DNA from: Amanita rubescens
Taxonomy: Eukaryota > Basidiomycota > Agaricomycetes > Agaricales > Amanitaceae
Direction: 5' to 3'
Assembly (NCBI GenBank): GCA_015039365.1
Contig: WION01000100.1
Location: forward strand, 99,480 to 163,479
Length of the DNA: 64,000 nt
Shown: positions 4,321 to 36,190 of the stretch, one piece after another
Numbering within the stretch: position 1 is the first letter of the stretch
Layout of the letters: each line of letters opens with the position of its first letter
Program-made: the position numbers and the translations under genes
Notes under the pieces: generated by a model
What the model was told of the DNA's origin: nothing
Databases searched by the model: none
The model's input: the letters and a program-made list of their open reading frames with translations, nothing else

Positions 4321-5681
4321 GATGGTGACCACAGTCTATGAAAAAATCATATATGGAATTGAGAGTTATGCTTGGAATAAGCAAAAATGAGGCTACCTGG
4401 GTGTTGTGCAATGAATGATGTGCTATATGGTGGTCAAGAAGAAAGGAAGTGATGTCACATGTCACATGAAACTTCGTGGTAAAGGGCTCTCGAGTCTCGG
4501 CGCAGTCCGGCACATGGTGGAACTGATGAACAAACAATCGCATATATCTGACCATTTAGTGCAGGCTACGGCAGCTCCTCCCACCACGGACAATTTGATC
4601 ACCTGCACAAGCTTATCACCTCAATGCGTGGTTCACACCTCGCCCCGTCATTGATGTGATTTTGCTTTCCCCATTACTGAGTCACCTGCTGACAGATGAA
4701 TTTGACGTGGTGAGTTGTTTGGCCCGCCAACTTTATCTGACTGAACTAAACAGTCACCCCTTCAGTTCCTGCTCTACATGTGCCGACCTTTTTAGAATGC
4801 TATGCGCAAGTGGCGGGGCCGTATCTGTTGACACATCGTCATGATGTCCGTGATATCTGTCAATTCATCATCTGATAGATGATGGATGATCGACAAGATT
4901 AACATGAAAACAAGATCTATCAAATACATCGTCATCAGCTGCATTGGGTTCATTTGACTTTACGAGTAGAATAGAACTGATACAATCTGTACTTGACCAA
5001 GGAGCACATGATTTTTAACACCTGCACTTTGACAAACAAGGTCGAATACTACGAAAGCTGCGCATCTTGCAACGGCAACTATCGATACCGGCATCTTTTA
5101 GCCATCACCATAAGTACCCAAGCGCCCACTCACCTTGCCCCAAACTCCCCAACGAAACACGATAAACCGCCAAGGGATCCTCATCATCCCTTCTCGTATT
5201 CCTGCCTAACGACAAACCTCACAAACGTACTCCGAAGCTGCTCCTCCCGAACCAGGGTTGAACCCGTTATTGTTTACCGCATTTCGTCGACATGTCACCG
5301 GTCGAGTGTGCTCCCGCAGCTCCTTGTATCCTGGAGCGAAGAGAAGCGCAGCATATCTGGGAACGACCCATTCGCATATCTGATGAGGTTACTTTGTTAA
5401 ACGGTAACACGCTAAGAGTAACCTCAGTTACGGATATTCGTACTAGTATTGGGTTCATACCTAAGAGTAACCTACGTGATGTATGTTAGAAAGGGTTTTG
5501 TAAGAATTGTAAGGAACGTCTCACCTCAGTTACGGATATTCGTACTGAGGTGAGAGGGTAGAGAAGTATGCTATTTATATGTTTACCAAGAGGTCCGTAA
5601 AGCGTAGAGAGACATGTAACAAAGGGTAAGCGAATGAATGTATGAAAGAGGTGAAAGAGGTGGAGACGCGCTTTATACCTA
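4321..5681. other. No recognisable gene
   Basis: Short ORFs only, none with a recognisable domain. It contains the presumed 5' flank of the NLR and, near 5400-5560, a 24-nt direct repeat with a hairpin that is listed separately. The stretch 5400-5681 may be a remnant of an older mobile element. Confidence 0.5.
5522..5552. repeat. Hairpin within a repeated 24-nt motif
   Basis: CACCTCAGT and ACTGAGGTG form perfect 9-bp inverted arms around a 13-nt loop. Twenty-four bases of it (5523-5546) recur exactly at 5421-5444, where the right arm is not complete. Function unknown; it looks like part of a decayed element. Confidence 0.6.
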
Positions 5682-14839: not shown

Positions 14840-17800
14840 ATGGCAGCTACAACTAGTGCACCTTCTTTGAGTAGGCTAATTTATATGTCTCAGCATTGTT
14901 AATCCCTGATTGACACATATCAGATGCAGATGATCATGAGACACATGTTCAAGTACTCAGGGAACGCTATCTATGCCCACACTTTCGCATCCTTGTCATT
15001 GGAAGGGCTAATGCAGGCAAGACAACCATCCTTGAGAAGGTTTGTGGTGTAGCAAAGGGGACAAAGACCAGCATATATGACAAGGATGGTATGTCAGTTG
15101 GACTTTGTGCTTCCTTTGACTGTCAAGTTTCTTGCAGGTAATCAGCTTGAACAGTCTGTGATTCATTTGGTGCCATCAATTGAGGTGAGCCAGATAATGA
15201 TGTATAGATGTATCCATTCACAATCAAGGATAACAGAGAGGCATGCATGATATTGAGCATCAAATTACATACCCTGGAAGTGACTTTATCTTCCATGACT
15301 CTATGGGTTTTGAATCTGGTTCAACTGATGAATTGGAGCTTGCTTGGAAGTTCATTGAAAAGAGGTCTGCAGAAACTGAGCTGAAGAATCAGTTGCATGC
15401 AATTTGGTATTTTGCATTTTCCCTTTACAGTACTGTCTGACCTGACTTCCTGTAGGTACTGTATACCCATGGACAGCCCTCGTCCCATTCTGCCCACAGA
15501 ACTTGAATTCTTCAATAAAGGGACAGGCAGTGGTAAGTCCTTATCTTGTTGTTATCTGCTTTCCATTGGCCAAATTTCCACAAAATTCACCACAGTGCAC
15601 TGACTAGTCCTTTACAGTTCCTTTGGTGGTTATATTCACTAAGTTTGATGGTCAAATAGCAAGTGAATTTGTCAACTTGACTGATTCAAAGGATGAAGAT
15701 AAGTGGGAGAGAGCCAGGGAAATTGCTGAAATCACTTTTCAGAAAGTTTATCTTCCTAAAGTTTTGGATGTCAAGTATCCTCCCAAGGCATATGTGCGAT
15801 TGGAAGGTGAGAATGATGAGGATTTCTTCCTGAAAAATGGCAGTAATGTCATTTCATAGACATGGATTTACCTGAGAAGAATTGTGCTGAATTAACTCAG
15901 CAAACTGCTGATGCAATAGACAATGAAAGCATACATCAGCTGTTTGTTTCAACACAGATGAATAATCTTGGTCTTTGTATTAAATCTGCACTTTGGTGAA
16001 TGTCATATTCAAAATGTCACTCACTAACATTGACATTGCTCAGACATGCTCTGGGATGTAAAGATTGGACATGGGATCATGGCTTTCTCATGGTTTTTTC
16101 AAAATTTCCACATTTCTGGGTATGTATTTTGTCAAACTACATATCACCATAGAAAGAATGCACAGAAATAGGTGGACAGGAAGGTAGGTGACCTTGGTCT
16201 GGAATGATAAATCTTTGCAACAAGTGCATCAGGAGGTAAGTAACACTCTGATACCTTCACATGAAAACAAGATTAGTCATTGTTCAGATGGCCAATGAAG
16301 CACAGGTTAGTTGTTGCCATATTCTTGGTGGCAGGATCTGATGATATTGATATCAGTGGGTAAGTGACATTGAACTAAGATAGATCTGATATATTGTCTC
16401 ATGACAACAGTTTGTGAGTAATGCTTTTTTTTGTGATCAGCAGGGTTGTCCCATAATCTACAGGAAGTGAGTGACATGACTCAATTTTGATTTGGGTAAA
16501 TGATCCCATGGTGCATCATATGACCAATAGGAAGTGAGTTAATCTATAATCATTGTAAGCAGACTTGTCAACCCAGTCTCTCATGGGCAGGGAGTGAGTG
16601 ATACAGTGTGACTGCCTCACACAACATTTGACCTGCTTAAAGAAAGTAAGCAACTTCATTGTGCAGCAGTTTATCAAACACAACCCAATGAACAATAGAA
16701 GGTTAGTGACATAATGTTATCTGAAAGATGGTCTCAACAAGCCTCATTGGATTAATAACAGAAAGTCAGTGAGATTTCCTTTCTGTCTGCTCATAAACAT
16801 TACATGAGTCCCAAAATAACAGACAGTAAATATGTCTCCTTTTCAAACATTCATCACAAGCAATTACAAAACAAACAGGATGTATGTAATATTTTTGTGA
16901 GATATGAGCTCATCATATGCAATACTTTAAAAGAGAGTCAGTGGGATTGTTTTCTTTCATTCAATTTTATTTGTTGAACTTATAATATACGATATACATA
17001 CGGTATATAGTAAATATAAGTGATATCATTAGTTTACACTAACTAATGTAATAACGCTCAGTTACTTACTCGTCTCTCAACCAATCATAATAGTGGATGA
17101 TTGAGTGTGAGATAATATATTGACATGAGAATATATTCGACATATTCTCATACTCATCTACCAATCATAATTGTGGATGATTGATGATGAGAACATATTC
17201 TGACATGAGAATATCCTAGCGATATTCTCATAAGATCATCCAATCATAATAGTGGAACTATTGATGATGTGAATATATGTTGACATAAGAATAGAAGACA
17301 TATATACGTTATGGTTATCGACCTATCACATTGAAGATTGATAATGTGATGAGTCAGTCAATATAATTGATGAGTCAAGTGCTGCGCAAAGCTATACATT
17401 GCTGTACAATAGCTGTGCATTGCTGTGGAATGACGCCTTATGAGTCAAATACCTTTGACTCACACTGATAAGACTCTTTGTACTTATTTGTAGTTTAGTA
17501 GTATATAAACTGTACTCTAGTAGCGTCAATCCCTATCCTATTATCCTCTCTACTGTCTACTGTTGAGCCCCAGCTCCAGTAAGCTCTTAACAACTCCACA
17601 CCACACTCAGTAAGTAGTACATTCTATGTACTAGACTGCGCTGCTCGCTAGGGACTTGTTACCCCTAGTTTCAACAGGTTATGGGCCCCGAAACCAGACG
17701 CCTTTGGCGCTATTGGTTGTGAAGCCAAGCGACGCACACTCTCAAGTCATTGACGGAGAGAAAAGGTAAAACAAAGGTAACTGGGCGAGGCGCCCAGTGT

Positions 17801-20800
17801 GGTTTTCATTTTCTTGTTAGATTAGTCACCGCACTTGGCTAACCCTTCTGGGAAGTGAGGGATAGACTCTGAGTCATCCGCTTACCTAGATTGTATACGC
17901 CCGGACCCAGGGCTAAGGGGACCCCGTTATTACTCAGCGGTCTAAATTACGAGTATCCCTGTACAAGGGACCGTCTTGGATGACGTTAAAAACCGGCTTA
18001 GATCGCCTTAAAAATCTCGCAGTGGACCATTACTGTGTCAATAGAAATTGGCTCACTTGTGAAGTGTTAACTTCACCGGTTATTACCTACCGTATAAAAA
18101 GGTAACGTCCCACACTGTATTCCGCTTGGGCAGTGTGATGTGATTGGACGTATTGAACCACGCTATACCATCATCAGGATTTTCGATCCTGTAAAATACC
18201 TAATATATGTACAAGTAATAATAAATTCTAGTATAAGGGGTGAGATGAGGTCACATTGTGGACCGTACACTCTGCCTATCGAGAATGCGCCCTTAGGGAC
18301 TTCTCTAGATTAGGAATACACTCAGCTGTAACCCAGCGGTGTCTAGATTAATTCTTAAAAACTTGTACATACACGTCTAGTGGGGGATTGAGACCCCATA
18401 GACCATCTAAGTGATGGACTTATCTCATGCGTTTGGGAATGCAGTCGTTATCGTCATGGTTATTCCAGAGATTAAACGGTTATCATTTGATCGTTTAAGA
18501 AGGGACAAGGGCCGATCCCCGAGTCTTTAATCTATTGTCAGACGCTTAGGTTGGCTATTCTTACCTACATTGGATCATATCCCACGCAAATATTATGCTG
18601 CGTTATTAGATGCTAAAAACATCGAAGTGGATACCAATGTGACATAGATCTTGGTTAATATAACACCTTTCATAACGATTAGTACCAAATTCAACATGCA
18701 TGACAAGAAGAAACAATGATGTGCGAAACTTGTGCCGAAACATCCAATTTGCGTACAAATTATCTGTTTTCTGGGATTAGTAAGGGCTGAAGGCTCTGAA
18801 CGCCCATTCCTTTCTTTTGATCTTATCCAAAGAACTATGTGATGATTAAACCTCCTGATTTCAGCAAAAATTTTAAAATCAATTTTTTCAATTTATATAA
18901 AAATGTCGTTTGTAAACTCTTTCTCGCCGTTGTCTTCTGCTGGCGGTGCCCTTGGCACTCCGATTTCTTCGAGGACAGTCCCCTCTCGGACTACCCCGAA
19001 CAATTTGCCCGGCTCTGGCGCCCGGCATCTCCAGGCCCCCGTTAGGGCCTTACCAAAGAATTCGCCGCCGCCTGCAAAGGCACAGGTACCAGAAATGGTA
19101 CCTTCATTACGTATTCCTGTTCCGACTTCTGCGCCTCAAGCTGTGAGGCTTAATAGGAACTATAAAAAGTATCCTGTTCCCATGGGCTCGCGCCCATATA
19201 TGCCTCATGCAGCAAAAGGCTGCCACTGTTCGCATCCCGATGCGATACATCATGTACACCGCTGTGTACAAAAAGTCGTCTTCGACTATAAAGGAGTCCC
19301 GACGGCTCCTAAATCAATGCGGAGCCCAACAGGTCAGTCTTCTAGAAATACTAGGTGTGCATCTTTATCTCATAAAGATAATCTAGTCTCTTACGCCAAG
19401 GCCGCGAAGGCTGTTGGGCCAGTCTCTCGTCCACAAGGACGACCTACTATCGTCAACGAAGGTTGGCGATATAACAAAGATCGTGGATCACCTTGGATCC
19501 ACAACACTAAACCGGAAGAGTGGTCCTATGGACCACCAAACAATGCCCATGTCCAATTCAGGCCAGTCACCAAAAACGACTGGCATAAGGGTAATCGTCA
19601 ATGGAAAAATAAGACGAATATCCCTAATGCTTTGGATTCGGATGCGTACCGCCAACATTTCCTTGGCATCGCATCTGACGAAAGGGGCAGAATTCCTCTT
19701 CCGGAGGAGATTACTCAAATATACAAAAAAGGAAAGGTAAATACACCTTTTAACGTATATAAGACCCAACTAAAACATAATACAGAACAAAAAGGATGGC
19801 GAAAGTCAACAACACCTACCTGGAGTAGATGCGCCCCCAACATTGCAAGTTGGGGATATATCGTATCTAAAACTCGAGCCCAAAGCAGAGCGGCTGGAGT
19901 GTTTCCTTCAAATCAAGAGGGAACCGAAGTGAAAAGGGTTGTTGACGAATATAGTAATGACATGGGAATATGGCAGGAAACTGGAAGGCTTCCCGGACGG
20001 TATAAAGACTTTCCTCACATAAAATTACCTAAAGAATCTATTTTCGACAAACTTGTCGATGATAGAGACAATAGGAGGGCTAGATTCGCATCTAACCCTG
20101 TGACGGAAATTCGATATTACATACCTGAAAGGACGTGTAAAAAAGATATTCCCTAGTTTACTTTCTAGTATTAACACTAGATAGTAAAAATACTATATTC
20201 TTGTCATTTTTGACATGAACGACATTAAGCTTAAGAAATCAGGACGGAAATTACATCATCACATATATTCTTATGCCTTATTATTATTTGAACCTTTTCT
20301 TACGTAAAATCTTCTTAGATTTTAAACAAACTTAACCAAAGTAAGAAAATGTCTTCTTCCAATTCGATAAACTCCATTGTTCCTGTTCTTACCGGATCAA
20401 ATTGGCTTGCATTCGAAAGACTTATGACTGCGTACTTAAACAGTCAAGGTCTTGGTGCACATATTGATCCTAAACTTGATTGGCCCAGAGATCTTGAACC
20501 ATCTGAAAAAGAGGCGATCAAGACATCTGATATAAAGCCAGATCAGTTAAAAACCCTTAAAGAAATTCGCAAAGAATACGTCGAATTTAAAGAGGACAAT
20601 ATGAAAGCCAAAGGTTACATTACCTTAAAACTAGCACCTAATCTAGTACACCTTGTTGACGATAAAAATGATAAAGCCGAAGTCCTTTGGAAATCTCTAA
20701 AGGATAAATTTGGTAAACAAGGTCTGGCTGCTACGTTTGGACTCTATAGACAAATTGTCGACTGGAAACTCAAAGAGAATTCCAATCCCAACACTCAAGT

Positions 20801-23800
20801 TCCGCATCTTATGGACTTGATTAATAGAGTGTCAAACCAAGGTGTAACCTTAACTGTCAAAATGCAAATTATGACGATCCTACATGCCTTACCTCCTTCA
20901 TGGGACAGCTTTGTCGCAAATCTGTTGGCACATTCCGCAGATGATGACACTGTAGATCAATTCCTTAATCTCATATCTGAGGAATGGTCCCGAAGGAAAG
21001 GTAACAGGAACAATGCCAATACTTCTGTTGTCACGAGAGGGAATAAACATTCTAACTCTCAAGTAGTTGCAAATATGGCACGCCAACAATTGCAACAAGG
21101 ACAACCTCGCACCCCTTGGAATTCCTATCGTGGGAAATCCTTTCGAGGCAGAGGTGGAAGAAAACCAATGGGAAATCGAAGAAACCCAACACAACATACT
21201 TCGACAGGTGGACCATCTAATGGACCAAAACATACACCTGGCCAATCTCAGACTCCTTTTAGACCCCAATGGGCTGGTCAAGTCCCTAATCAGTCTAAAG
21301 GACCAAATTGGGAACGCAATAAGGCAGCTAAAGCAAAGAATCGTGCGAATAAACTTGCTGCTCGCACAGCAGCTCAATCAACACTTGGTTCTGGGCATGC
21401 TATGGCATCTTCGACATCAGCATCTTTACCTCTGATTGCCAGAATTGGAGATCAGGTAATGACAGATTTTGATGAAGAATTTGTCCCCAAGATTTACAAG
21501 TACAAAGGTACTCGTGCGGTTCCCACGGACGACTTCATGGGGAGAATTGATGAGATATCCGAAGATTCGGGAGATTCTGTATCCAGAGATGTACAAAAAG
21601 TACGAACTGAATCAACGGACTACTCTGATATCTTTGATTCTGCAATATTTGCAGATACTAAGGATACTCAAAGTTTGGACGATCTTGCTAGTCCTATCTT
21701 TGCTTCCTCTAGTATATCCCATCATCAAACCGATAATGAAGGATATCAAACAGATAATGAATCACATCAATCTGAGGCCAATTCTTCAGGGTATGAAGGA
21801 CTTTATACCGATGAGGAGCCTGAAGGACCAATGCCTGGTTCCTTTGATGATGAACAAATAAGTTGGTGGTATGTACATACCAGACAATATTATGTGGATC
21901 AAGTTCGACGAGCTAATTTGGAAGCTCGAAGAATGAATACTAATGCACGCACTTTAGAACACTTACAAAATATGTTGAGAGGGATGGTAAATGACCATGA
22001 CACTGTATCCCTCCGACCAGAATCTGTAAGTTCATCAGATTTAAATTACTTTTACCAATCTGATCAAGATTCTGTTTACCATACGGCTCCAGAATCTATG
22101 GCATCATCTCAAATCCCAACAAGGCCTATTACGCCTTATGAAGATTTTTTTAATTTATACGATTATCCAACTAATCGTACTATTGATACTGTACCGGTAA
22201 TACCATCAAATGTACCGATAGTAAACCCTACACCAAGAAGATCTATTGATCTTCAGAATTTATATTATTTTGATGCCAATATGCGTGAGAATGAAAGATA
22301 TAGACAAAACATGTCTAATCTTCAAAATCTTCCAAATCATGGAACATTCTCTGAATTATATAATCAATATAACTTAGATGAATTCATAATAGAAGAAAAC
22401 AATCGAAGACGTGCTAATGTTATTAACATTGGACATCTTCAAGATCCATATAATCTACCTTGTAGTAAATCACCTTCTTGCAAATGTCCTGAATGTTATA
22501 AAAATAATAAAGGACTTACAATATGGATGTGTGACTCAGGTGCATCACATCATTTTACCGCACACTTAGAAGATTTTGTCAGCTATAAAAAATATGAAGT
22601 TCCTACTTCAGTATTTACAGCTGATAATCAAGCAGATATATTAGGTATAGGGACTGTGATTTTGGATCACACTCTTAAAAATGGTTCGGTTTCAAGATTG
22701 AAACTTTATCCGGTCCTACATATGCCAAGTGCCACACTACGACTAATAAGCAATGGAACATTGTGTAAACAAGGTTTTATTGCAAAACAAGATAATGATA
22801 GGATTTCTTTCTACAGAGAAGGCTCTGAAAACGCATCACTGGAAGGATTTCCAGGAGATGGTAACGAAACATTAATGTGGACAGAAGGTCAAATTATTAA
22901 ACCTTCAAATTATAAATTAATGATGACCACTATTAATGTTGTTGGATATGAAATTTGGCATCAACGGATGGGTCATCCTAGCCAACAAATATTGAAATTA
23001 GGCTCTAAAAACTTAGAGGGTTTCCCTCCCTTAACAATTCCTAAAGACTTAGAACCTTGTAACGGTTGTCTAAAAGGAAAAGCTGTTTCACAAAGCTTTC
23101 CTCTTTCAGAAAAACGTGCTACCCAACCCTTTGAACGTATACACTGTGACTTGATGACTTTTCCAATACAATCTTATCATAAACAAAAATATTTACTTGT
23201 AATATTTGATGATTGTACATCTCATGTATGGGTAAAACCATTACAGAAAAAGTCTAACGTCGCTGTAGTATTTGAAGGCTGGCACAAACAAATATACAAC
23301 CAATATGGATATAACATAAAAATAGTTCGTTCCGATCGAGGGGGCGAATTTATGTCCACCAATATACAAGATTACTTAACTGATGTAGGAATTATTCATG
23401 AAAAATCTACTCCATATATACATCAACAAAATGGAAAGGTTGAACGCATGAATAGAACACTTTGGGAGAAAAGTGAAGCATTGAGATTACATGCTTCATG
23501 CCCTCAATCTTGGTGGAACTTTGCGATCGAAACTGCCGTACATGTTTATAATCGTACTCCACTTAGACGAACCAAATGGAAGACCCCTGTTGAAAATCTT
23601 ACTGGAAAGAAACCTGATGTTTCTTACTTTAAGATATTCGGATCTAAAGCTTGGGTATTTATCCCACATGAATCGCGCGAAAATAAATTAACACCAAGGT
23701 CTGAAATAATGACCTTTATTGGATACGAACCGAATGCAAAAGCATACCGCTTCATGACAAATACAAATCAACTTCGAGTATCCACCCAAGCTGAATTTGA

Positions 23801-26800
23801 TGAAACCAAATTTCCAAGAGCCAAACCTCAAGATGAAAATTATACAAAAAACTTGGACCCTATCAGGCCTATTGAGCAGGATAATTCTGAAAACTCAGAT
23901 AAAAATATCTCTGATGGTAAACCAAATAATGAAGGAGATATTTCATCTGAACAGCAGCATTCAGATGATGATTTCTTTGATTTCAACTTTGAAAATCATT
24001 CAAGTTCTGATTCATCAGACAATGATGATGATGATACTAAATGGGATGATAAATTAGAATCTTTCTTTGAAAAGAAAGATACATCTTCAAAAGACAAAGG
24101 TGCTGAATTAGATCAACCTACAGGCGTTGAATTAGATCTACCTGTACAAAGTCTTAAAGATAAACCTACTAAAGGAAAAGGCAAAGGAACTGCTAAAAAA
24201 CCTGTAGAACCTACTCGAAGATCTGAAAGATCTAGAAAACCGGTTATACAGAAAGACAATGCTTATGGTAATAAAACACCATTAGAAATTGAAAAAGAAA
24301 TTACAGAAGAACAAGATGTTGTTCGAGAATTAATTCAAGATCTTAAAGAAAAAGATAAATCTGATCCAAGACTTGATGTTACAATCAGATATTCTCTTAG
24401 ATCTAAAATACGACAACATATTGATAAAGTTAAAGTACTTTATTCAACATTACACAATGCTCAAATTAATGAAATGTCATGTCTCATTAAAGAGCAAGGT
24501 AATGGTTTTCTGAATTACTTACTCGCACAAGCAATTCCTGCCATTGATATTTCAAGAGACAATATCAGAGAATATCAATACAAAGATATTCAAAAAGTCA
24601 AAATTGCTGATCCCAAATCTTATGAACAATGGGAGACAGCAATGAATGATGAAATGAAATCATTGAATGATAGAAAAATCTGGGAGCTTGCAGAATTACC
24701 TCATAATCGTACACCTATTAAATGTAGATGGGTATATGATATTAAATCTGACGGTCGAAAGAAGGCTCAACTTGTCGCTAAAGGATTTTCTCAAAGACCT
24801 GGACTTGACTATGATGAAACGTTTTCGCCTGTGGCAAGATATGAAACGATTCGCCTTTTGTTAGCAATATCTGTGCTAGAAAAATGGGATATTGAAGCAC
24901 TAGATGTTAAAACAGCCTTTTTGTACGGAGATCTCGAAGCGGATATCTATATGCAACAACCAGAAGGTTATGTAGTCAAAGGCCAAGAACAAAAAGTTTA
25001 CCAACTTAAAAAGGCAATATATGGACTTAAACAAGCCTCATATGCCTGGAATAAACAAGCTAATAAATCCTTAGAGGATTTAGGATTTATACGCTGTTTA
25101 TCTGATTCTGGCGTATACGTCAGAAGAGAAGACGACACTATAATAGTGTGTATAGTATATGTCGATGACATGCTTTTCATGGGTGACAGTACACCAGAAA
25201 TTCATAAAGTTAAAAATGCTTTTATGAAGAAATGGGAATGTCATGATCTTGGAAAAGTTAAAGAATACTTAGGTATGCAAATCAATTACAATAAGAACAT
25301 GGGTACTCTTATTATTGATCAACATGCATACGCTAAGAAGGTTGTAACAAGATTTGGTTTAGAAAATTGTAAACCAACTCGTACACCTTTACCAACAGGA
25401 TATATTCCAACTGCTGCTACAAAAGAATGTACAGCAGAAATGCGATCTTATTTTCAACAAATAATAGGATCGTTGTTATATCTTGCATTAGGAACAAGAC
25501 CTGATATTACTTATCAAGTAATATTAATGTCTCAGTTTTGTGCAAACCCAAATGAAGAACACATACAGAAAGCATTATACATAGTACGCTATGTTAATAC
25601 CACTGTACAAACTAAAATAGTTTATAATGGTTTAAACAAAGAAGGCTTTGTAGCCTTTACTGATGCTGACTGGGGTGCTGACAAGATTACAAGAAAATCT
25701 GTCACTGGATATATAGTAAAACTCGCAGGAGGTGCTATATCATGGGTTTCACGAAAACAAAAAGTAGTGGCACTGTCTTCAACTGAAGCAGAATACATGT
25801 CAATGTCTGATACATCAAGACAAATAGTTTGGATTGAGTCACTTATGAGTGAACTCGATTTTCCAATTAAAACTATTTTCTTATGTTGTGACAATCAAGG
25901 AGCAATGTTCTTGGCCAGTAACCCTGCACAAGAACATCGTTCAAAACATATTGACATAAGATTCCACTACATTAGACAATGTGTCGAAAGTGAGAAAATT
26001 AAACTCACATACATTCCTACCAATGAACAAGTTGCGGATATAATGACCAAAAATCTACCATATTCAAAATTTGTAATATTCCGAATGAAGATGGGATTAA
26101 TCCTAGATGATAGTCAAATATCATTAACTAATCATATTAGGGCATCACAAACTTTTGCTAATTATATTAAAAGTAAAACCCTTAATAAGTCCCCAGGACA
26201 ACATAGTAAAATATTTGAAAGAATTCAAGATCTTGAAGTGCGAGGATATCTTGAAGAAATCTTTAAATACTATGAAAGAGAAAATGATAAATTGACTACC
26301 CTTTTGAAAGCTAATAAATAACTTAGCGAAGGGGAGTGTTGAACTTATAATATACGATATACATACGGTATATAGTAAATATAAGTGATATCATTAGTTT
26401 ACACTAACTAATGTAATAACGCTCAGTTACTTACTCGTCTCTCAACCAATCATAATAGTGGATGATTGAGTGTGAGATAATATATTGACATGAGAATATA
26501 TTCGACATATTCTCATACTCATCTACCAATCATAATTGTGGATGATTGATGATGAGAACATATTCTGACATGAGAATATCCTAGCGATATTCTCATAAGA
26601 TCATCCAATCATAATAGTGGAACTATTGATGATGTGAATATATGTTGACATAAGAATAGAAGACATATATACGTTATGGTTATCGACCTATCACATTGAA
26701 GATTGATAATGTGATGAGTCAGTCAATATAATTGATGAGTCAAGTGCTGCGCAAAGCTATACATTGCTGTACAATAGCTGTGCATTGCTGTGGAATGACG

Positions 26801-29800
26801 CCTTATGAGTCAAATACCTTTGACTCACACTGATAAGACTCTTTGTACTTATTTGTAGTTTAGTAGTATATAAACTGTACTCTAGTAGCGTCAATCCCTA
26901 TCCTATTATCCTCTCTACTGTCTACTGTTGAGCCCCAGCTCCAGTAAGCTCTTAACAACTCCACACCACACTCGGTAAGTAGTACATTCTATGTACTAGA
27001 CTGCGCTGCTCGCTAGGGACTTGTTACCCCTAGTTTCAACATTATTATCCTAATTCTTTTAAAAGGAAGTAAGTGATGCAGGCCAATCTGCTACAAGACA
27101 ATCTGGACAATCCTTTTGCTCTACAGATTGTGAATGATACTGGCTGTTTTGTGAAAAGCACTGAATTTTTTTGTATAAACATAGGGGGTTAGCATCATGT
27201 CATACTGGTTTAATGATTCAAAAGATGACCATATGAAAAGTTTGCCTATAATGGCCAACAGTTCTATGTGAGTAACATTTCAAGTATTCCTGAAAGGCTG
27301 CTCTATGTGTCCTTTCCTATGACCAACAGCTTGTCAGTGACATTGCCCAATGTTTGAAAGGCTGTCTTATCACATTTTTCCTGTGACCAACAGAATGTGA
27401 ATGATACCACACATTGGTGAAAGCAGTCTCATCACATGTTTTCATATGGCCAACAGCAAGTGAGTGACACTGCACATTTTGTGAAAGGCAGTCTCACATC
27501 TGTCCCTATGACCAATAGCTTGTGAGTAACATTGCCCACTGTGTGAAATGCAATCTCATCACTTCTTTTCCTATGACCAACAGGTTGTGAGTGACATTGC
27601 ACATTTTGTGACATGAAGTCTCATCACTTCCTTTCATATGACCAACAGAAAGTGAGTGGCAAAAAAGGAGTCTCATCACATTTTTTCATATGATGAACAG
27701 CAAGTGAGTGACATTGCACATGTTGTAAAAGGCAGCTTAATCACATTTTTTCTTATGACCAATAGAAAGCAAGTGACACTACCCATTTGTGAAAGCAGTC
27801 TCATCACATCTTTCCCTATGTCCAACAGGTTGTGAGTGACATTACCCATTCGTAAGGCAATCTCATCACATCTTTTCCTATGACCAGCAGCAAGTGAGTG
27901 ACATATCAAGGCAGTCTCATCACATCTTTCCTATGACCAACAGAAAGTGAGTGACATTACAGAGTTTGTGAAAGGCAGTCTCATCACATGTTTCCTATGG
28001 CCAACAGAAAGTGAGTGACATTACAGAGTTTGTGAAAGGCAGTCTCATCACATCTTTTCATATGACCAACAGAAGGTGAGTGGCATTGCACATTTTGTGA
28101 AAGCCTATCTCATCACATTTTTTCCTATGAACAACAGAGAGTGAGTAATATTGAATATTTTGTGAAAGGCAGTCTCATCACATCTTTTCCCATGACCAAC
28201 AGCTTGTGAGTGGCATTGTACATTTTGTGAAAGGCAGTCCCATCAGATCATTTCCCACAATCAACAGGATGTGAGTGATATTGCACATTTTGTGAAAGGC
28301 AGTCTCATCACTTCTGTTTTGATGTCCAACAGATTGCAAGTGACATTGCTCATTTTGTGGAAGGCAATCTCATCAGATCATTTCCTATGACCAACAGCTT
28401 GTGAGTGACATTGCATGTTTTGTAAAAGTCACTCTCATCATATGACAAACAGCAAGTCAGTGACTATATATTTTATGATAGGCTGAATTACCACTTTTTT
28501 CCTATGACCAACAGCTTGTGAGTGACTTTGTACATTTTGAGAAAGGCAGTCTCATCACTGACCAACAGGAAGTGAGTGAAATTGCAAATGTTGTGAAAGG
28601 TTCTCATTACATTATTTCCATGACCAACAGAATGCAAGTAAAACCACACATTTGTGAATGCAGCCTCATTATATTTTGCCTTATGACCAACAGGTTGTGA
28701 GTAACATTGCCCATTTTGTGAAAGGCAATCTTATCACTTTTATTCCTATGACCAGTTCCAACAGCAAGTGAGTGACATTACACAATGTGTCAAGGCAGTG
28801 CCATTACATATTTTCCTATGGCCAACAGCAAGTGAGCCTTGACATTGTACATTTTGTGAAAGGCAGTCTAATCACATTTTTTCTTATGACCAACAGGAAG
28901 TAAGTGATATTGTACATTTTATGAATGGTAGTGTTATCACATCTTTTCCTATTACCAACAGAATGTGAGTAACATTGCACATGTTGTGAAAGGTGGTGAC
29001 ACTGAATCTGTTCCTTTGGCCAAAAGGAAGTGAGCAATGGTGCACATGTTGTGAAAGACAGTCTCAACACATGCTTTCCTATGACCAACAGCAAGTGAGT
29101 GATATTGCACAATGCTAGGAAGGCAGTCTTATCACATGTTGTCCAACAGAATGTGAGTGACGGCACATGTTTGTGAAAGGTAGTCTCATCACATCCTTTG
29201 ACCAACAGTTTGTAAGTAACATTGCACATTTTGCAAAGCAGTCTCATCACATGTTTTCATATGACCAACAGCAAGTGAGTGACAGTGCACATTTTGTGAA
29301 AGGCAGCTCCATCACATTTTTTTCCTATGACCAACAGAATGCAAGTACACCACATATTTGTGAAAAACAGTCTCATCACATCCTTTCTATGACCAACAGC
29401 TTGTGAGTGACATTGCACATTTTGTGAAAGCAGTCTCATTACATCTTTTCCTATGACCAACAGCAAGTAAGTGGCATTGCACATTTTGTGAAAGGCAGTC
29501 TCATGAGATTATTTCCTATGACCAACAGAAAGTGAGTGATATTGCACAAAATGTGCAAGGTAGTCTCATCAATTCATTTCTATGACCAACAGCGAGTGAG
29601 TGACAATACATATCTTGTGGAAGTTTCACCAGATCTTTTCCTATGACCAACAGGTTGTAAGTAACATGTTGTGACAGGCATCACCACATCTGTTCATATG
29701 ACCAACAGAATGTGAGTGACATTGCACAATTTGTGAAAGGCAGTCTCATCACATCTTTTCCTATGACTAACAGGAAGTGAGTTATATTGCACATTTTATG

Positions 29801-32800
29801 AATGGCAGTCTCATCTCATCATTTCATATGACCAACAGCAAGTGAGCAACATTGTACATTTTGTGAAAGGCAGCTTTGTCACATCTTTGTCTATGACAAA
29901 CAGGAAGTAAGTGACATTGCAAATTTGGTGAAAGACAGTCTCACTGCATCTTTTCCTATGACCAACAGGAAGTGAGTGACCTCCAATGCACGTTTTTTGA
30001 AAGGCAGTCTTAGTATCACATCTTTCCTATGACCAAAAGGAAGTGAGTACACTGGGACATGTCATGAAAGCCAGAATCACTGCATCTGTTCTTATAACCA
30101 ACAGAAAGTGAGTGATGTTGCACATGTTGTGAAATCACATCTTTTCCTATGACCAATAGTTTGTGAGTGGCATTGCCCATGTTGTGAAAGTCAGTCTCAT
30201 CACCTCCTTTCCTGTGACCAATAGTTTGTGAGTGATATAATTATTGAACATTTTGTGAAATGCAATCTGATCTTCTTTTCCTAGGGCCGACAGAAAGTGA
30301 GTGACACTGCACAATTGTGACAGGCAGTCTCATCATTTCTTTTCCTATGTCTAACAGAATGTGAGTGACATTGCACATTTTGTGAAAGGCAGTCTCATCA
30401 TATCTTTTCTACAACCAACAGTTTGTGAGTGACATTGCAGACTTTGTGAAAGTCAGCTCATCACAACTTTTCCTGTGATCAACAGTGGGTGAGTGACATT
30501 ATATGTACATTTTGTCACACATGGTCTCATTGTACTGTATGTTTTCCTATGACCAACAGTTTGTAAGAAACATTGCAGATTTTGTGAAAGGCAGTGTCAT
30601 AAGATCCTTTCCTATGACCAACAGAATGTGAGTGACACCACACATTTGTGAAATAGTCTCATCACATCTTCTCCTATGACCATGAATGGCAGCGTGTAGG
30701 TGGCATTGCACCTTTTGTGAAAGGCAGTCTCCTCAGGTCATTTCCTATCAGGGAGTGAGTGACATCACACATTTGTGAAAAAGTCATTTCCTATGACCAA
30801 CAGGGAGTGAGCAACATTGCACAGTTTATGAACAGTAGTCTCATCAAATCTTTTCATATGGCCAACAGAAAGTGAGTAACATTGCGTGACATACATATTT
30901 TGTGAGACACTGCCTCATTAAATATCTTCCTATAATCAACAGCCAGTAAGTGGCATTGCACATTTTGTGCACTCTCATCACATCTTCAATTCCTATGACC
31001 AATAGCTTGTGAGTCACTTACAGACTTCATGAAAGGAATTCTCATCATCAAATCTTGTCTTATGACCAACAGGATGTGAGTCACATTGCACATTTTGTGT
31101 AGGGCAATCTTGCAACATCTTTTCCTATGACCAATGGCAGTATGTGAATGACATTGCACATTTTGTGAAAGGCAGTCTCATCATATTACTGACAGCATGT
31201 GAGTGACATTCACACTTTATGGAAGGCAGCATCCTCACATGTTTTCCTATGACCACCAGGAAGTAAGTGACATTGCACATTTTGGGAAAAGCAATCTTAT
31301 CACATGACCAACAGCAAGTGGGTGACATTGCACATTTTGTAAAAAGCAGTCTCATCACATCTTTTGCTGTGACCAACAGAAAGTGAGTGACATTACACAT
31401 TTCTTGAAAGGTAGTCTCATCACTTCTTTTTATATGATTAAAGTATGTGAGTGATGTTGTGCATTTTGTGAAATGCTGTCTTGTCACTGTTCCTATGGTC
31501 AACAGCTTGTGAGTGACATTGCACATCTTGTGAAAAGCAGTCTCACCACATCTATTCATATGACTAATAGGATGTAAGTTACATTGCCTATTTTGTGAAA
31601 GGCAGTCTTTTCCTATGACCAACAGGAAGTGGGTGACATTGCACATGTTGTGAAATGCAGTTTCATTACATTTTTGCTCTGATCAACAGTGGGCAAGTGA
31701 CATTGCACATTTTGTGAAAGCAGTTTCATCACATCTTTCCCCATGTCCAACAGGTTGTGAGTAACATTTCCCATTTTGTGAAAAGCAATCTCATCATTTC
31801 TTTTCCTATGACCATCAGCAAGTGAGTGACATTGCACATTTTATGACCTGCCACAGTCTCATCAGATCATTTCCAATGACCAACAGAAAGTGAGTGGTGT
31901 TACAAGTGTTGTGAAATGCAGTCTCATCCCTTCTTTTTCCATGACCAACAGCAAGTGAGTCCGACATTTCACACTTTTTTGAAAGGCAATTCACCACATT
32001 TTCTCCTATGACTAATAGCAAGTGAGTGGGTTGCACATTTCATGAAAGGCAATGATCTCATTACATCTTTTGCTCTGACCAACAGGAAGTCAGTGCCATT
32101 GTACTTCTTGTAACAAGTAGTCTCATTACATCTTTCCCTATGACTGACAGGAGGTGAGTGACATTGCATGTTTTGTGAAAGGCAGTCTCATCATCCTTTC
32201 CCATGACCAACAGGTTGTGAGTGACTTTGCACATTTTGTGAAAGGCAGTCTCATCACATTTTTTCCGGACCAACAGAAAGTGTGTGACATTGCACATTTT
32301 GTGATAGGCAGTCTCATCACATCCTATCCTATGACCAACAGAAAGTGAGTGACCTTGCCCACTTTGTAGAAGGCATGGCATCATATTGTGACCAACAGAA
32401 AGTGTGTGACATTGAACATATTGTGAAAGGCAGCCTCATCACATCCTTTCCTATGGCCAACAGTTTGTGAGTGACATTGAATATTTTGTGAAAGGGAGTC
32501 TCATGACATTTTTTCCTTTGACCCACAGCAAGTGAGTGAGATTCCCAATTCTCTGACCTCATACTCTGATTCATGAATGTTTGATATATGATTATATCCT
32601 TTGTAAATCAGAAAGTGAGGATGTTGCCCATTTCCAAGCCTTTCATATTATTATCATCATAGATTGTAAGTTTTGATTTCAGGTCACCTACTTGCATCTC
32701 ATGTGACCATTCCCCTAACTTATATCACTTTCTTTGATTTCCAGGTGAGTGATGTTGGTTCATACAGTATTGACATTTTCATATCATTTTGCATGCTAGT

Positions 32801-33227
32801 GTGTAGGTCTGACCATTGATCTTACATTGGATTCTATCTCATGAATAGCTTGAACTTTTCTCCTTGTTTGGAGGCAAGCAAAAGAATTTTTCAGTCAAGG
32901 TATTTTTTTTTTGTGGGTAGCACACAACTGATGCCATTGTAATAAGCCTACCAATTGCCAGGTCCTCCTTTGTAAATAATTCCTTTTCATTTACTCCATT
33001 TATGCTTAAACCTTCAAGCAATTATCATCATTGCAAAGCTATCCTTTTGGATCAATAAACCATTCTTGCAATCAGTCACAGAAGCCATGCATCAATACAA
33101 GAAAAAAGGCTATGATCAGAAGCTCAAGACTGACATTACTCCTGACTTATTGCACTCTGGTCATCAAGATTTGGTCTCATTATTCTATGAGCAGGTGACT
33201 TGCATTGATGGTAGGTACTTTATCTAG
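14840..33227 (+). CDS. P-loop GTPase gene hosting the micro-exon-like array
   Basis: Exons read by eye: 14840-14870, 14924-15088, 15138-15184, 15237-15406, 15456-15532, 15618-15806, 15860-15995, 16044-16119, then the array, and a C-terminal exon 33019-33194. Visible motifs: P-loop GRANAGKTT, G3-like HDSMGFES, G4-like IFTKFDGQ, then a helical region ending FPHFW. The last exon encodes a hydrophobic helix (IIIIAKLSFW) and charged helices. This matches my recall of an Agaricomycete 'G domain-containing' family of unknown role, perhaps sensing or membrane remodelling. The reading frame holds through exon 7. As I splice it, the 15995/16044 junction forms TGA, so the gene may be broken or use another splice site. 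Sequence between 16119 and about 32650 is mostly array and the copia insertion. Coordinates of the last exons and the stop are uncertain. Confidence 0.6.
16190..16971 (+). repeat. Degenerate intron-like tandem units (left part of array 1)
   Basis: About 13 divergent units, each an AG acceptor, a short segment (GAG, TGG, TTT, GAA, GGA, AAA, AAG, ACA, GAT and others) and a GTAAGT/GTGAGT/GTTAGT-type donor. Intron bodies share little sequence, unlike the right part, so these are older or faster diverging. The copia element follows immediately. Confidence 0.7.
16972..17676 (+). repeat. 5' LTR of the copia element
   Basis: 705 bp. A TATATAAA box near 17502-17509 lies upstream of CTGTACTCTAG, the probable U3/R area. 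It carries three imperfect internal repeats (separate entry). Confidence 0.97.
17078..17297 (+). repeat. Three imperfect 65-80 bp repeats in the copia U3
   Basis: Each unit contains CCAATCATAATAGTGGA or a close variant, followed by TGATGATG and TTGACATGAGAATAT-type sequence with inverted TATTCTCAT. They also occur in the 3' LTR (about 26443-26662). Position upstream of the TATA box suggests enhancer-like repeats. Confidence 0.75.
17677..17689 (+). promoter_or_regulatory. Half-tRNA(iMet)-type primer-binding site
   Basis: GGTTATGGGCCCC directly follows the 5' LTR. It complements the anticodon stem-loop of eukaryotic initiator tRNA (around GGGCCCAUAACC), not the tRNA 3' end. Drosophila copia primes this way with a tRNA cleaved in the anticodon loop. 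Confidence 0.75.
18903..20156 (+). CDS. Uncharacterised 417-aa ORF in the copia leader
   Basis: Intact ORF of 417 codons between the 5' LTR and gag-pol. It is in the same frame as gag-pol but separated from it by a stop and 192 nt. The N-terminal 120 residues are Ser/Pro-rich. Near residues 107-121 a CHCSHPDAIHHVHRC cluster could bind a metal. The remainder is basic, rich in K/R/N/W, and looks nucleic-acid binding. I do not recognise a family. It is not the usual Gag (that lies in the next ORF) and no membrane segment suggests an envelope protein. Its preservation in a young element argues for a role in the element's life cycle, for example as RNA chaperone or accessory Gag; this is inference. 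Confidence 0.8.
   Translation: MSFVNSFSPLSSAGGALGTPISSRTVPSRTTPNNLPGSGARHLQAPVRALPKNSPPPAKAQVPEMVPSLRIPVPTSAPQAVRLNRNYKKYPVPMGSRPYMPHAAKGCHCSHPDAIHHVHRCVQKVVFDYKGVPTAPKSMRSPTGQSSRNTRCASLSHKDNLVSYAKAAKAVGPVSRPQGRPTIVNEGWRYNKDRGSPWIHNTKPEEWSYGPPNNAHVQFRPVTKNDWHKGNRQWKNKTNIPNALDSDAYRQHFLGIASDERGRIPLPEEITQIYKKGKVNTPFNVYKTQLKHNTEQKGWRKSTTPTWSRCAPNIASWGYIVSKTRAQSRAAGVFPSNQEGTEVKRVVDEYSNDMGIWQETGRLPGRYKDFPHIKLPKESIFDKLVDDRDNRRARFASNPVTEIRYYIPERTCKKDIP
20349..26321 (+). CDS. Gag-pol polyprotein of the copia element
   Basis: 1990 codons, intact. Gag-like helical domain at about residues 10-220 (contains [15 protein letters not shown] and [10 protein letters not shown]), then an RG-rich segment ([10 protein letters not shown]) where a CCHC knuckle is usually found. 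A long acidic, Ser-rich linker covers about 360-700. A cysteine cluster [12 protein letters not shown] lies directly before the protease CDSGASHHF (about 728-736). Integrase: H-H-C-C with HQRMGHPS near 870 and CNGC near 904, SDRGGEF near 995, [11 protein letters not shown] further on. RT: [23 protein letters not shown] and YVDDMLFMG (about 1603). RNase H: TDADWGAD (about 1770) and SSTEAEYMS. Length exceeds most copia polyproteins (often 1300-1500), mainly through the linker. Confidence 0.96.
   Translation: [1990 protein letters not shown]
26328..26336 (+). promoter_or_regulatory. Polypurine tract of the copia element
   Basis: GAAGGGGAG immediately precedes the 3' LTR, the expected position of the plus-strand primer. 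Confidence 0.85.
26337..27041 (+). repeat. 3' LTR of the copia element
   Basis: 705 bp, identical to the 5' LTR apart from one A/G difference (ACTCAGTAAG versus ACTCGGTAAG, near 26973). Followed by TSD TTATT. Confidence 0.97.
27047..32650 (+). repeat. Main intron-like tandem array with 3-nt 'micro-exons' (about 88 units)
   Basis: Head-to-tail units with a period of about 65 bp. Each begins GTGAGTGAC (variants GTAAGT, GTCAGT, GTGAAT, GTGGGT, GCAAGT), continues with ATTGCACATTTTGTGAAA and GGCAGTCTCATCACA-type sequence, then TTTTCCTATGACCAACAG. A 3-nt segment then separates AG from the next donor. Segments I read include CAA, AAA, GAA, CTT, GTT, AAT, TTT, GAT, GGA, TGG, TAT, CGA, ATT and AGA; one is 6 nt (TTCTAT, near 27265). 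None is TAA, TAG or TGA. Intron bodies vary (about 45-65 nt) with substitutions and indels, but the AG and GT/GC edges persist. All units face the direction of the GTPase gene. It is either a run of one-codon exons or an intron-derived satellite. Confidence 0.85.
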
Positions 33228-33230
33228 TAA

Positions 33231-33823
33231 TGCACTATTTATGAACACTTTATGGCAGGGTGAAACACCCAGGACAATATCAGGTGATTTATTGACTGCA
33301 TTACCTTTGGATTGGCTGCATATTTATTTGTACATAGATGACTTCTCGAGTACCTTCCTTTGGTTATTTCAAGGCAACAGATAGTCCTTGGTATAAGTTT
33401 GGGCAAAATTAATTTGGGGGAAGGGCAAGAATTGAGTCTGTCTGTGTATAAGTTCTTAAAATACATTGTATTGATTTTGCTTTACATATTTCCAAAAGGC
33501 TCTACTAGACTTTCATTGCACCAGTTCAAATCTGTCACAGCTCATGAGATACATATATGTACATGGTACAAATATTGTATTCTATGACAGGCCTGCAGCC
33601 TGTACATAAATTCACTTGGGGTGATGCTGATAACAATGCAGAAATATTTCGGTTGGACACTGACCAGCCTCTGCAATCAAAGTCTACCAACATATCCTTT
33701 GATATTTCCTCCATCATCTTGTACTTCAATCCAAATATCCTCTTCTCCTTACTCGTATCATAGTCAAGCATGTATGGCACCATTCTCCCAGCACCCAGAT
33801 TACCCACAGCAAGAGTCTTACAA
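33231..33823 (-). pseudogene. Segmental copy of the reductase 3' end (exon 8 and downstream flank)
   Basis: Matches about 43651-44850 around the last exon of the intact reductase gene, including GAGR.APYMLDYDTSKEKRIFGLKY and the C-terminal RGWSV. The stop codon of the source is mutated in the copy, upstream exons are absent, and the right breakpoint (after AGTCTTAC) runs straight into the intron-like array. It also holds the empty version of the solo-LTR site (single GGGTG at 33258-33262). Confidence 0.9.
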
Positions 33824-36190
33824 CAGGATGTGAGTGAGATTGCACATTCTGTTAAAGGCAGTCTTATCACATCTTTTCCTATGACCAATAGCCAGCAAGT
33901 GACATTGCACATTTTGTGAAAGGCATCCTCATCATGTCTTTTCCTATAACCAACAGCAAGTGAGTGACACTGCACATTTTGTGAATGGTGGTCTTTTCAC
34001 CTTTTTTCCTATGGCCAACAGCTTGTGAGTGGCATTGTCCATCTTGTGAAAGGCAGTCTCATCACATTGTTTCCTATGAACAGCAAGTGAGTGATATTGC
34101 ACATCTTGTGAAAGGCAGTCTCATCACATCTTCCTATGACCAATAGTATGTCAGTGACATTGCACAATTTGTGAATGATAGTCTTATTTCATGTTCTCAC
34201 ATGACCATCAGCCTGTGAGTGACATTGCACATTATGGAAAAGGCGGTCTCACTTTTCCTATGACCAACAGCAAGTGAGTGACATTGCAACTGTTGTGAAA
34301 GTCAGTCTCATCAATCTGACCAACAGCCAGTGAGCAACATTGTACAATTTGTGAAAGACAGTCTCATCACATCTTTTCCTATGACCAACAGCAAGTGAGT
34401 TACTGTACTTTAAACATTTTGCGAAAGCAGTCACACCACATCTTTTCCTATGACCATCAGCGAGTCAGTGACATTACACATTATGTGAAATGCAGTCTGA
34501 TTACATCTTTTCCTGCAACTACCAGTTTGTGAGTGACATTACACATTTTGTGAATGAGTCTTATCACATTTTTTCCTATGACCAATAGGATGTGAGTGCC
34601 ATTGCATGTTTTGTGAAAGGCAGTCTCATCACATCTGAGTCTTTTCCCATGTTCAACAGGGAGTGAGTAACAATTTATGAAAGGCAATCTTATCACATCT
34701 GTTCCTATGACCAACGGCTTGTGAGTGAAATTGCACATTTTATCAAAGGGAGTCTCATCACATCTTTTCCTATGATGAACAGCATGTGAGTGACATTGCA
34801 CATTTTGTGAAAGGCAGTCTCTTCACATCCTTTCATATGACCAACAGCTTGTGAGTGACATTGCACATTTTGTCAAAGGCGGTCTCATCACATTCTTTTT
34901 TGTAATCAACAGTATGTCAGTGACATTGCACATTTTGTGAAAGGCAGTCTAATCACATCTTTTCCTATGACCAACAGCGAGTGAGTGACACCACACATGA
35001 TGTGAAAGGCAGTCTCATTGCACCTTTTCCTCTGACCAACAGGGAGTGGGTGACATTGCACATTTTGTGAATTGCAGTCTCACTGTCTTATTGCATTTTT
35101 TTTGGTAACCAACAGTCAGTGAGTGACATTGCACACTTTATGAAAAATGGTCTTGTCAGATCTTTTTCTATGACCAACAGGGAGTGAGTGACACTGCACA
35201 TTTTGTGCAAGGCAGTCCCATCACATTTTTTCCTATGATATCCAACAGCCAGTGAGTGACATCATTGTGTGTTTTGTGATAGGCAGTCTCATCACATCCT
35301 TTCCTATGACCAACAGGATGTGAGTGACATTGCATGTTTTGTGAAAGGCAGTCTCATCACATCTTCCCCTGTGACCAACAGATTGTAAGTGACATTGCAC
35401 ATGTTGTAAATGGCAGTCTCCTTGCATCTCTTCCTATGACCTCCAGCAAGTGAGTAACACTGCACATCTTGTGAAAGGAAGTCCCATCATATCTCTTCCT
35501 ACTATGACCAACAGGAAGTGAGTGACATTGCATGTTTTGTGAATGGCAGTCTCACAATCTTTTTCTATACCAACAGCGAGTGAGTGACATTGCATATCTT
35601 GTGAAAAGCAGTCTCATCACATCTTTTCCTACAACCAACAGTTTGTGAGTCCCATTGCCTGATTTGTGAAAGGCAGTCTCATCACATCTTTTCCTACAAC
35701 TGACAGTCAGTGAGTGAAATTGCACATTTGGTGAAAGGCAGACTCATCACAATTTTTCTATGACAGCAAGTGGGTGACATTGCACATTTTGTGAAAGGCA
35801 GTCTCTTCACACCCTTTCCTATGGCCAACAGTTTGTGAGTGACATTGCACTTTCTTTTGAAAGGCAGTCTCTCCACATCTTTTCCTATGATCAACAGCTT
35901 GTGAGTGACATTGCACATTTTGTAGAGTCTCATCATATCTTTTCCTGTGACCAATAGCAAGTGAATAGCATTGCATATTTTGTGAAAGGACATCTCATCA
36001 GAACTTTTCCTATGAACCAATAGCCTGTGGGTGACATTGCATATTTTGTTAAAGATCTCTCATCAGATCTTTTGATATGACCAACAGCTTGTGAGTGACA
36101 TTGCATATGCTGTGAAAGGCAGTCTCATCACATATTTTTCCTTGGGCCAACAGCTTGTGAGTGACATCACAAGATTTGTGACCTGAATTC
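33824..36190 (+). repeat. Second stretch of the intron-like array (about 37 units)
   Basis: Same unit and orientation as the main array: acceptor CAACAG or CAATAG, a 3-nt segment (CAA, CTT, CCA, GAT, CGA, GGA, TTT, TAT, TCA, CAT and others), then GTGAGTGAC. One unit near 34713 has CAACGG instead of AG. It lies beyond the apparent end of the GTPase ORF, separated from the main array by GTPase C-terminal sequence and the reductase copy. Confidence 0.85.

Follow-up and report, generated by a model that had tools for sequence, protein, structure and literature searches.

In flatworm micro-exon genes (MEGs), very small exons whose lengths are divisible by three follow one another in runs and build variable proteins; the locus described here resembles them in these respects. 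The window analyzed is a stretch of 64 kilobases (kb) from Amanita rubescens (assembly GCA_015039365.1, contig WION01000100.1, positions 99,480 to 163,479 of the forward strand), which harbors a tandem array of intron-like units separated by 3 nucleotides (nt) and interpreted below as the middle of a GTPase gene. A working rule for micro-exon genes requires seven or more exons, of which half or more are micro-exons (<70 nt, divisible by 3), and a run of four or more (PMC7653826); the Amanita array genes, with 30-94 chained 3-nt exons per gene, fall within this rule if exon status is taken from sequence. Schistosoma MEGs are described as having 10-20 short exons, mostly of 15 base pairs (bp) with a range of 3-81 bp (also given as 6-81), and introns of 0.1-5 kb (PMC10526429). 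In contrast, the predicted exons of the Amanita arrays are nearly all 3 nt long, stand dozens in a row and alternate with introns of about 60 nt copied from one sequence. The Schistosoma type, with its mostly 15-bp exons and 0.1-5-kb introns, does not describe genes in which 205 of 215 spacers measure 3 nt and the modal intron 62 nt. Schistosoma MEGs are further characterized by secreted proteins and by isoforms that arise through exon skipping, whereas the predicted Amanita protein starts with a GTPase-like domain. Common ancestry of the two is not claimed.

In recursive (ratchet) splicing an acceptor adjoins a donor and each splice creates the next donor. The Amanita genes share this feature in the form of a zero-length AG/GT junction in 8 of 11 loci, but differ in that each of their predicted steps leaves a codon. 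TALE repeats are near-identical, differ at a tiny variable di-residue spot and evolve by recombination; their repeat body is protein, whereas the Amanita repeat body would be intron and removed. Introners are near-identical introns present in many copies per genome and reported from pezizomycotina fungi and algae (PMC9860276, PMC4457414). Near-identical introns at many positions were also found here: in the 75.7-megabase A. rubescens assembly used for all genome-wide scans, CAACAGNNNGTGAGTGACATTG occurred with up to two mismatches at 3432 places, against 2 for a control, and 35 of 40 modal introns of one array were identical to the consensus (L015; L-numbers denote array loci of this genome). 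However, introners are scattered across many genes, whereas the Amanita introns are tandem, 3 nt apart and, as far as inspected, in one gene family; all 10 arrays aligned upstream fall in this GTPase family. Tiny exons are known singly, such as the 1-nt exon of Arabidopsis APC11 (PMC4674806) and the 3-bp exon of Drosophila homothorax (PMC7392893). Spliceosomes can include exons of this size, but these stand alone in their genes, whereas Amanita would have runs of dozens. Among the results listed by a search of the open-access literature, with bioRxiv outside it and few subscription papers covered, none described runs of single-codon exons. We regard the Amanita genes as a new category, because the repeat unit would be an intron carrying one codon and a satellite-like array would write a protein codon by codon.

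The sequence-only reading of this DNA had offered two possibilities, a gene split into roughly a hundred exons of one codon each, or a satellite that derives from an intron and has kept its splice sites. Our analysis argues firmly for single-codon exons: the array very probably forms the middle of a GTPase gene in which the unit bodies are spliceosomal introns and the 3-nt spacers are one-codon exons in phase 0. This is favored by the gene layout with its continuous frame, the absence of stops, a head peptide spelled codon by codon, a 48-codon match to an independent open reading frame (ORF) and a common intron, all of which are observations on sequence; the array is, however, not one gene from end to end. 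In 10 of 10 loci aligned from 1100 nt before the array, the window included, the same conventional GTPase exons lie upstream. A model built by hand for L012 comprises eleven exons with AG/GT at all internal sites and an open frame. Its product runs through a GTPase-like domain (P-loop GRANAGKTT), ..FSKFPHFW, VGRE, E and MARNKDLSETE, and enters the array in phase 0. After transfer to 12 other loci the frame was open in nine, with one site off AG/GT in L009, L011, L016 and L024 and exon 3 unplaced in L018. On the 3' side of the array, L009 continues in phase with K, I, a 51-nt exon (DELFSMFGDKQRHFAIM), a 25-nt exon (LADCQVLV) and a terminal exon (SIIIIVKISFWINKPFLPS..), and parts of this series were recognised in the ten further loci tried. 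Terminal-exon matches occur at at least 150 genome places at E<=0.001 (150 of 204 candidates scored), many of them near-copies.

The Pfam profile MMR_HSR1 scored 19.7 bits, below its cut-off of 21.9; in the protein collection, PF01926 is assigned to some close relatives. In the predicted product, a GTPase, the G domain is separated from a conserved C-terminal domain by a segment that is specific to each paralog and often charged or rich in Q. Annotation has missed the array, as the gene models of this family show: of eight A. rubescens models inspected, seven stop before or at most about 25 residues past the FPHFW exon and one (P0084) skips to the C-terminal domain. Models of relatives from Jaapia, Mycena, Lyophyllum and Amylocystis (P0099, P0104-P0108, P0112, P0117, P0118 and P0120) end shortly before or after the position at which the Amanita array starts, and these genes may hide the same layout. 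A divergent array, L017 (C26:113500-123499, minus strand), has longer introns and other codons including ATG and CTG, and lies directly upstream of a terminal-exon match of this family.

The triplets between the introns behave as codons. None of the 870 triplets chained in 15 arrays, by a procedure blind to the triplet itself, is a stop, whereas 56 stops were predicted from independent base frequencies per position (chance about 7e-26). Further counts gave 0/118 in eight paralogs, 0/48 in L044 and 0/47 in L045, so that overall no stop was found among 1083 triplets in 25 arrays. In the 15 arrays, NAA triplets comprise 117 GAA, 100 CAA and 57 AAA but no TAA, and NGA triplets 77 GGA, 60 CGA and 14 AGA but no TGA. 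TGG occurs 18 times there, versus 1, 1 and 3 for AGG, CGG and GGG. Genome-wide, the 26 occurrences of ACAG-TRR-GTRAGTGAC hold 25 TGG, one TGA and neither TAA nor TAG. Two apparent stops were discarded: a TGA under the loose pattern AG-NNN-GTRAGT arises when one unit, at 32023 of the window, is read out of register, and a TAG in L018 lies outside the array. Of the 870 triplets, 784 end in A or T, 5 in C and 81 in G; 31 of the G-ending triplets are TGG or ATG, in which G is obligatory, and 18 are GAG, 11 of these as the first codon of an array. The conventional L012 exons have G or C at 104 of 295 third positions. Loss of CpG and avoidance of NAG acceptors are guesses at the cause of the A/T third base.

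Evidence for the reading frame also comes from the peptides. Across ten loci the first dozen triplets spell a head peptide with the consensus E-[MANKQLSETQ]-W-F-E-Q-G-K-K-E-T-D-R-E-I, with exchanges among E/K/Q/R and T/I and with L for W in L011. The array gene L044 (contig 1) and P0045, a 478-residue ORF on a 1486-bp JGI contig, have the highest exon identities of those listed (86 and 90%). The 48 single-codon exons of L044 read WFESADNAAAKERQYYDDGVHAGYGYYGGEKISEKERDKRKDFVEREI, and P0045 reads WFESADDAAGKEREYYDDGIHSGGYGYYGGKKISEKERDHRRDFVEREI without interruption. In the alignment 40 of 48 residues are identical with one gap in 49 columns, and its score of 221 compares with a best of 63 from 2000 shuffles. 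Single-codon exons of eight further paralogs spell versions of KERDKRQQFVKR (KERDKRQQF), where P0045 has KERDHRRDF; three of these short peptides were tested against P0045, and among 2000 shuffles 3, 0 and 0, respectively, scored as high. P0002 and P0013, also from short JGI contigs, run uninterrupted through WFEKGKKESDREI / WFEKGKKESDREIEYDG and WFEHGKKDTDKQI / WFEHGKKDTDKQIVYDG. Another JGI ORF, P0092, is identical to the A. rubescens model P0114 over the first 98 residues and again in two stretches of 19 and 57 residues further on; where P0114 departs from it, P0092 runs on without a break. The reading-through ORFs were brought up by the first full-length protein search. Most simply, the JGI ORFs are metatranscriptome contigs, because they are uninterrupted across conventional intron sites on contigs of 1.4-1.9 kb. 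Two allele-like pairs of arrays show a single codon difference in total, GAC/GAT, which is synonymous.

In the window, all parts of the gene lie on the forward strand. Conventional exons 1-7 (14840-14870, 14924-15088, 15138-15184, 15237-15406, 15456-15532, 15618-15806 and 15860-15995) were placed by transfer from L012, with the P-loop GRANAGKTT and AG/GT sites. Exon 8 (16044..16119), ending in ..FSKFPHFW at phase 0, was placed by alignment and by transfer from L012, and lies where the sequence-only reading had put it. The ten-locus alignment then gives a 12-nt exon VDRK (16172..16183), which is VDRE-like in relatives and unevenly conserved among loci (e.g. KERV in L011). It is followed by the single-codon exon GAG (16233-16235), placed by alignment, and an 18-nt exon MANEAQ (16288-16305), whose counterparts in other loci are MANKQLSETQ-like and have 30-33 nt. 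The first single-codon run, W-F-E-E-G-K-K-K-T-D-R (16357..16936; first K, T and R by eye), yields a head peptide that is in large part common to the paralogs. One array intron harbors a young long terminal repeat (LTR) retrotransposon of 10 kb (16972..27041; 5' LTR 16972-17676, 3' LTR 26337-27041, target site duplication TTATT), whose 705-bp LTRs have one mismatch between them; the invaded intron retains its splice sites. The main single-codon run, E-I-..-L-N-Q-L-V-K-Q-K-V-..-F-Q (27066..32531), was read from chained junctions and, together with GAG and the first run, comprises 94 of them without a stop. The last two single-codon exons, AAA (K, 32612-32614) and ATT (I, 32663-32665), have counterparts in paralogs.

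A zero-length AG/GTGAGT junction (32739..32751, with the AG ending at 32744) follows, and AG/GTGAGT or AG/GTAAGT sites stand at the corresponding place, behind the last single codon and ahead of the 51-nt exon, in L009 (8441), L016 (5776), L019 (7004) and L044 (4802). The junction is a possible ratchet splice site. The gene closes with a conventional 51-nt exon LELFSLFGGKQKNFSVK (32849-32899), a 25-nt exon PTNCQVLL (32947-32971, by eye) and the terminal exon (S)IIIIAKLSFWINKPFLQSV..YFI (33019..33227), which ends with TAG at 33225-33227 and not, as had been proposed, at 33194. Behind the gene lies a second block of 36 single-codon units without a stop triplet (33827..36156, forward strand). No GTPase part and no terminal exon were found with this block, which makes it an orphan array. 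Tandem repeats of 126 and 129 bp occur at 5-2679 and 58305-60064 of the window; judged by their period, they may be TPR-like and WD40-like.

The sequence-only reading had described roughly 135-140 units of about 65 bp running head to tail, with exactly three bases between them. A position weight matrix covering 12 nt upstream of the triplet and 10 nt downstream of it (cut-off 6) detected 128 acceptor-NNN-donor junctions with an exact 3-nt spacer in the window, without a stop codon, whereas the maximum background score was 3.6 over 105,904 positions (flanks and the whole reverse strand). A forward-strand pattern search located 98 copies of AG-NNN-GTRAGT within 16100-36300 and none elsewhere in the 64 kb. 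Chaining gave 94 units upstream of the terminal exons and 36 downstream, and five weaker units recognised by eye (16643, 16823, 16934, 32612 and 32663) bring the total to 135; with its 62-nt modal intron the unit measures 65 bp. Number and length are thus as described, but the run is not continuous, since it is broken by the retrotransposon and by the last gene exons at 32849-33227. The spacing, too, departs from three bases in places. With the pattern AACAG..GTRAGTGAC applied to the window and L009-L019, the ten spacers out of 215 that differ from 3 nt measure 2 (three), 4 (two), 6 (one), 9 (two) and 32 nt (two), and one 6-nt unit, TTCTAT at 27262 of the window, was noted by eye. The claim that bodies are conserved and triplets variable holds in part. 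Among 29 modal window units the triplet positions differ between units at 0.74/0.53/0.54 per site, and the intron body at 0.25 on average and 0.53 in its most variable column; therefore only the first base of the triplet clearly stands out in the window. The contrast is extreme in L024, where triplets differ at 0.69/0.67/0.60 and introns at 0.037.

Several observations weigh against single-codon exons in a working gene. The exons are predicted from DNA sequence, and a transcript origin of the JGI ORFs is deduced from short contigs and an uninterrupted frame. Two protein searches with the tail only returned 2 proteins and 3 proteins (one being the query) and missed P0002 and P0013. Some copies are damaged, among them that of the window and L044, which is one nucleotide out of frame in its 51/54-nt exon and has a frame shift, seen by eye, in the terminal exon; L010 and L020 showed no open GTPase frame after transfer of the L012 model. 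In the window, the variability of the triplets exceeds that of the introns only to a moderate degree, and ten of the strict-pattern spacers depart from 3 nt. L015, the most homogeneous array, contains exons of 4, 2, 4, 2 and 2 nt (at 4545, 4612, 5196, 5652 and 5716), which sum to 14 nt and not to a multiple of 3, the first pair restoring the frame and the last three not. In addition, when the triplets are joined, frame 1 likewise lacks stops in 15 of the 17 arrays tested, and in L015 no frame has any, so that the stops alone are insufficient to fix the frame. A shifted frame was considered, but the phase in which the flanking exons join the array and the peptide matches support frame 0. TAA or TGA together with the G of the acceptor would form a rival GTRAGT donor, and splicing could therefore cause part of the stop deficit. 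As its sole cause donor avoidance was rejected, since it leaves the peptide matches unexplained, but it was kept as a partial one.

For the window itself, the damage makes it probable that the gene there is dying and represents a remnant of a system functional in its paralogs. Joining exons 7 and 8 creates an in-frame TGA that was not seen in the nine relatives with an open frame and is the one stop met on transfer of the L012 model, a young retrotransposon sits in one intron, and the MANEAQ exon is 12-15 nt shorter than those of the relatives. However, the chained triplets lack stops, the invaded intron keeps its splice sites and the terminal exon is open.

Most arrays are built from one 62-nt intron, GTGAGTGACATTGCACATTTTGTGAAAGGCAGTCTCATCACATCTTTTCCTATGACCAACAG. 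Twelve arrays have five or more modal introns; eight of them have exactly this consensus, two deviate at 1 position, one at 3 and L017 at 18. L015 has exact copies of it at 35 of its 40 modal introns and L024 at 41 of 69; the GTPase parts of these two genes are 94.6% identical. The other ten arrays have none, and their introns differ from the consensus by 7-21%, or 46% in L017. In L012 the modal unit is 56 nt instead of 65, and a shortened intron form appears to have spread within that array. Triplet diversity was 0.47-0.77 differences per site in 7 of 8 arrays tested, irrespective of intron divergence; in L015 the triplets are less diverse (0.10/0.67/0.22) and the introns differ by 0.5%. The triplets of L024 differ at 60-69% of sites and its introns by 3.7%.

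L015 and L045 are 98.4% identical in the GTPase part and differ at 15 of 1758 nt in aligned introns, but 29 of 47 aligned codons differ and 10 unit gaps separate the codon strings. At the shortest distance a whole-unit deletion is seen: L024 and its near-copy L046 are distinguished by one unit, with no codon exchange and 1 change in 4794 intron nt. The halves of an internal 18-unit duplication in L024 differ in 7 of 22 codons, three of them at all three bases, and in 12 of 1367 intron nt. Such a trace would remain if recombination between identical introns replaced whole triplets; extreme selection and intron insertion are alternatives. Identical neighbouring codons are in clear excess over shuffles in L022/L023 and L025 (p 0.001, 0.0005 and 0.0095) and in weak excess in L010 and L015 (0.03 and 0.04); the other 12 of 17 arrays show none, and unit duplication is thus visible in some arrays only.

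Under the proposed mechanism, recombination between near-identical introns would let arrays grow and shrink by whole codons with the frame kept, and the same recombination, together with mutation and selection, would turn over the codons and place a paralog-specific tail on a conserved GTPase. We consider it possible, though tentative, that recombination inserts, deletes and swaps codons in frame in this way, and that dozens of GTPase paralogs thereby acquire new, unrelated tails within a short time, possibly in the service of self/non-self recognition. The tail is perhaps a recognition surface; this is a guess prompted by how diverse the family is.

Alternatively, one mobile intron may have been copied, like an introner, into the codon boundaries of ordinary coding sequence without any tandem duplication of codon plus intron. 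Such copying would account for introns equal to one sequence in L015 and L024 although the GTPase parts are only 94.6% identical, for the same majority consensus in 8 of 12 arrays, for codon diversity independent of intron divergence and for conserved peptides (KERDxRxxF..) that are likewise split at each codon. However, insertion has no cause for a 3-nt step, and yet this spacing dominates. Moreover, the consensus, which begins with GTGAGTGAC and ends with CCAACAG, showed no terminal inverted repeat by eye, the triplets flanking one intron mostly differ on inspection by eye and thus do not form a target site duplication, and the loci compared upstream, which hold a minority of the 3432 places, have their introns in this GTPase family only. 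We regard this origin as doubtful.

How the single-codon exons could be spliced can be outlined. Introns of about 60 nt are usual for intron definition in fungi. Exon definition would be inoperable over 3 nt, and acceptor and donor machinery only 3 nt apart should obstruct each other. Splicing would accordingly proceed by intron definition, in order and intron by intron, each step appending one codon to the upstream exon and setting up the next donor. One codon would be added per ordered splice, since two introns with only 3 nt of exon between them could not be processed simultaneously. With donor strength lying within the intron (GTGAGTGAC), the exon bases would be largely free for coding.

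Exons of 3 nt are difficult to include in splicing, and skipping any of them keeps the frame. Random or regulated skipping might thus let one gene produce a cloud of proteins differing by single residues, and flatworm micro-exon genes are said to permit skipping (PMC7653826). However, the L044 chain aligns with P0045 residue for residue, apart from a single gap in 49 columns, and this favors faithful inclusion at that gene. We consider optional exons rather unlikely. That the array is an intron-derived satellite, with fossil splice sites, untranscribed or removed as one block, and with meaningless triplets, is hardly credible: its tandem, satellite-like units with a single consensus, the orphan block and retrotransposon in the window, the possible avoidance of TAA and TGA as competing donors and the open frame 1 would suit it, but chance or satellite origin of the triplets is contradicted by the missing TGA, TAA and TAG beside retained TGG, the head peptide common to ten loci, the 40/48 identity to the independent ORF P0045 and the continuity of the gene frame on both sides.

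If true, the reading of these triplets as single-codon exons sets a new limit of gene fragmentation, with dozens of such exons per run, thousands of matching units and exon definition out of operation. The arrays would provide a natural test of sequential intron-definition splicing and of what an exon contributes to its own splicing, which here is apparently very little, as well as of the origin of near-identical introns. They also suggest a route by which proteins of this GTPase family may evolve by whole codons.

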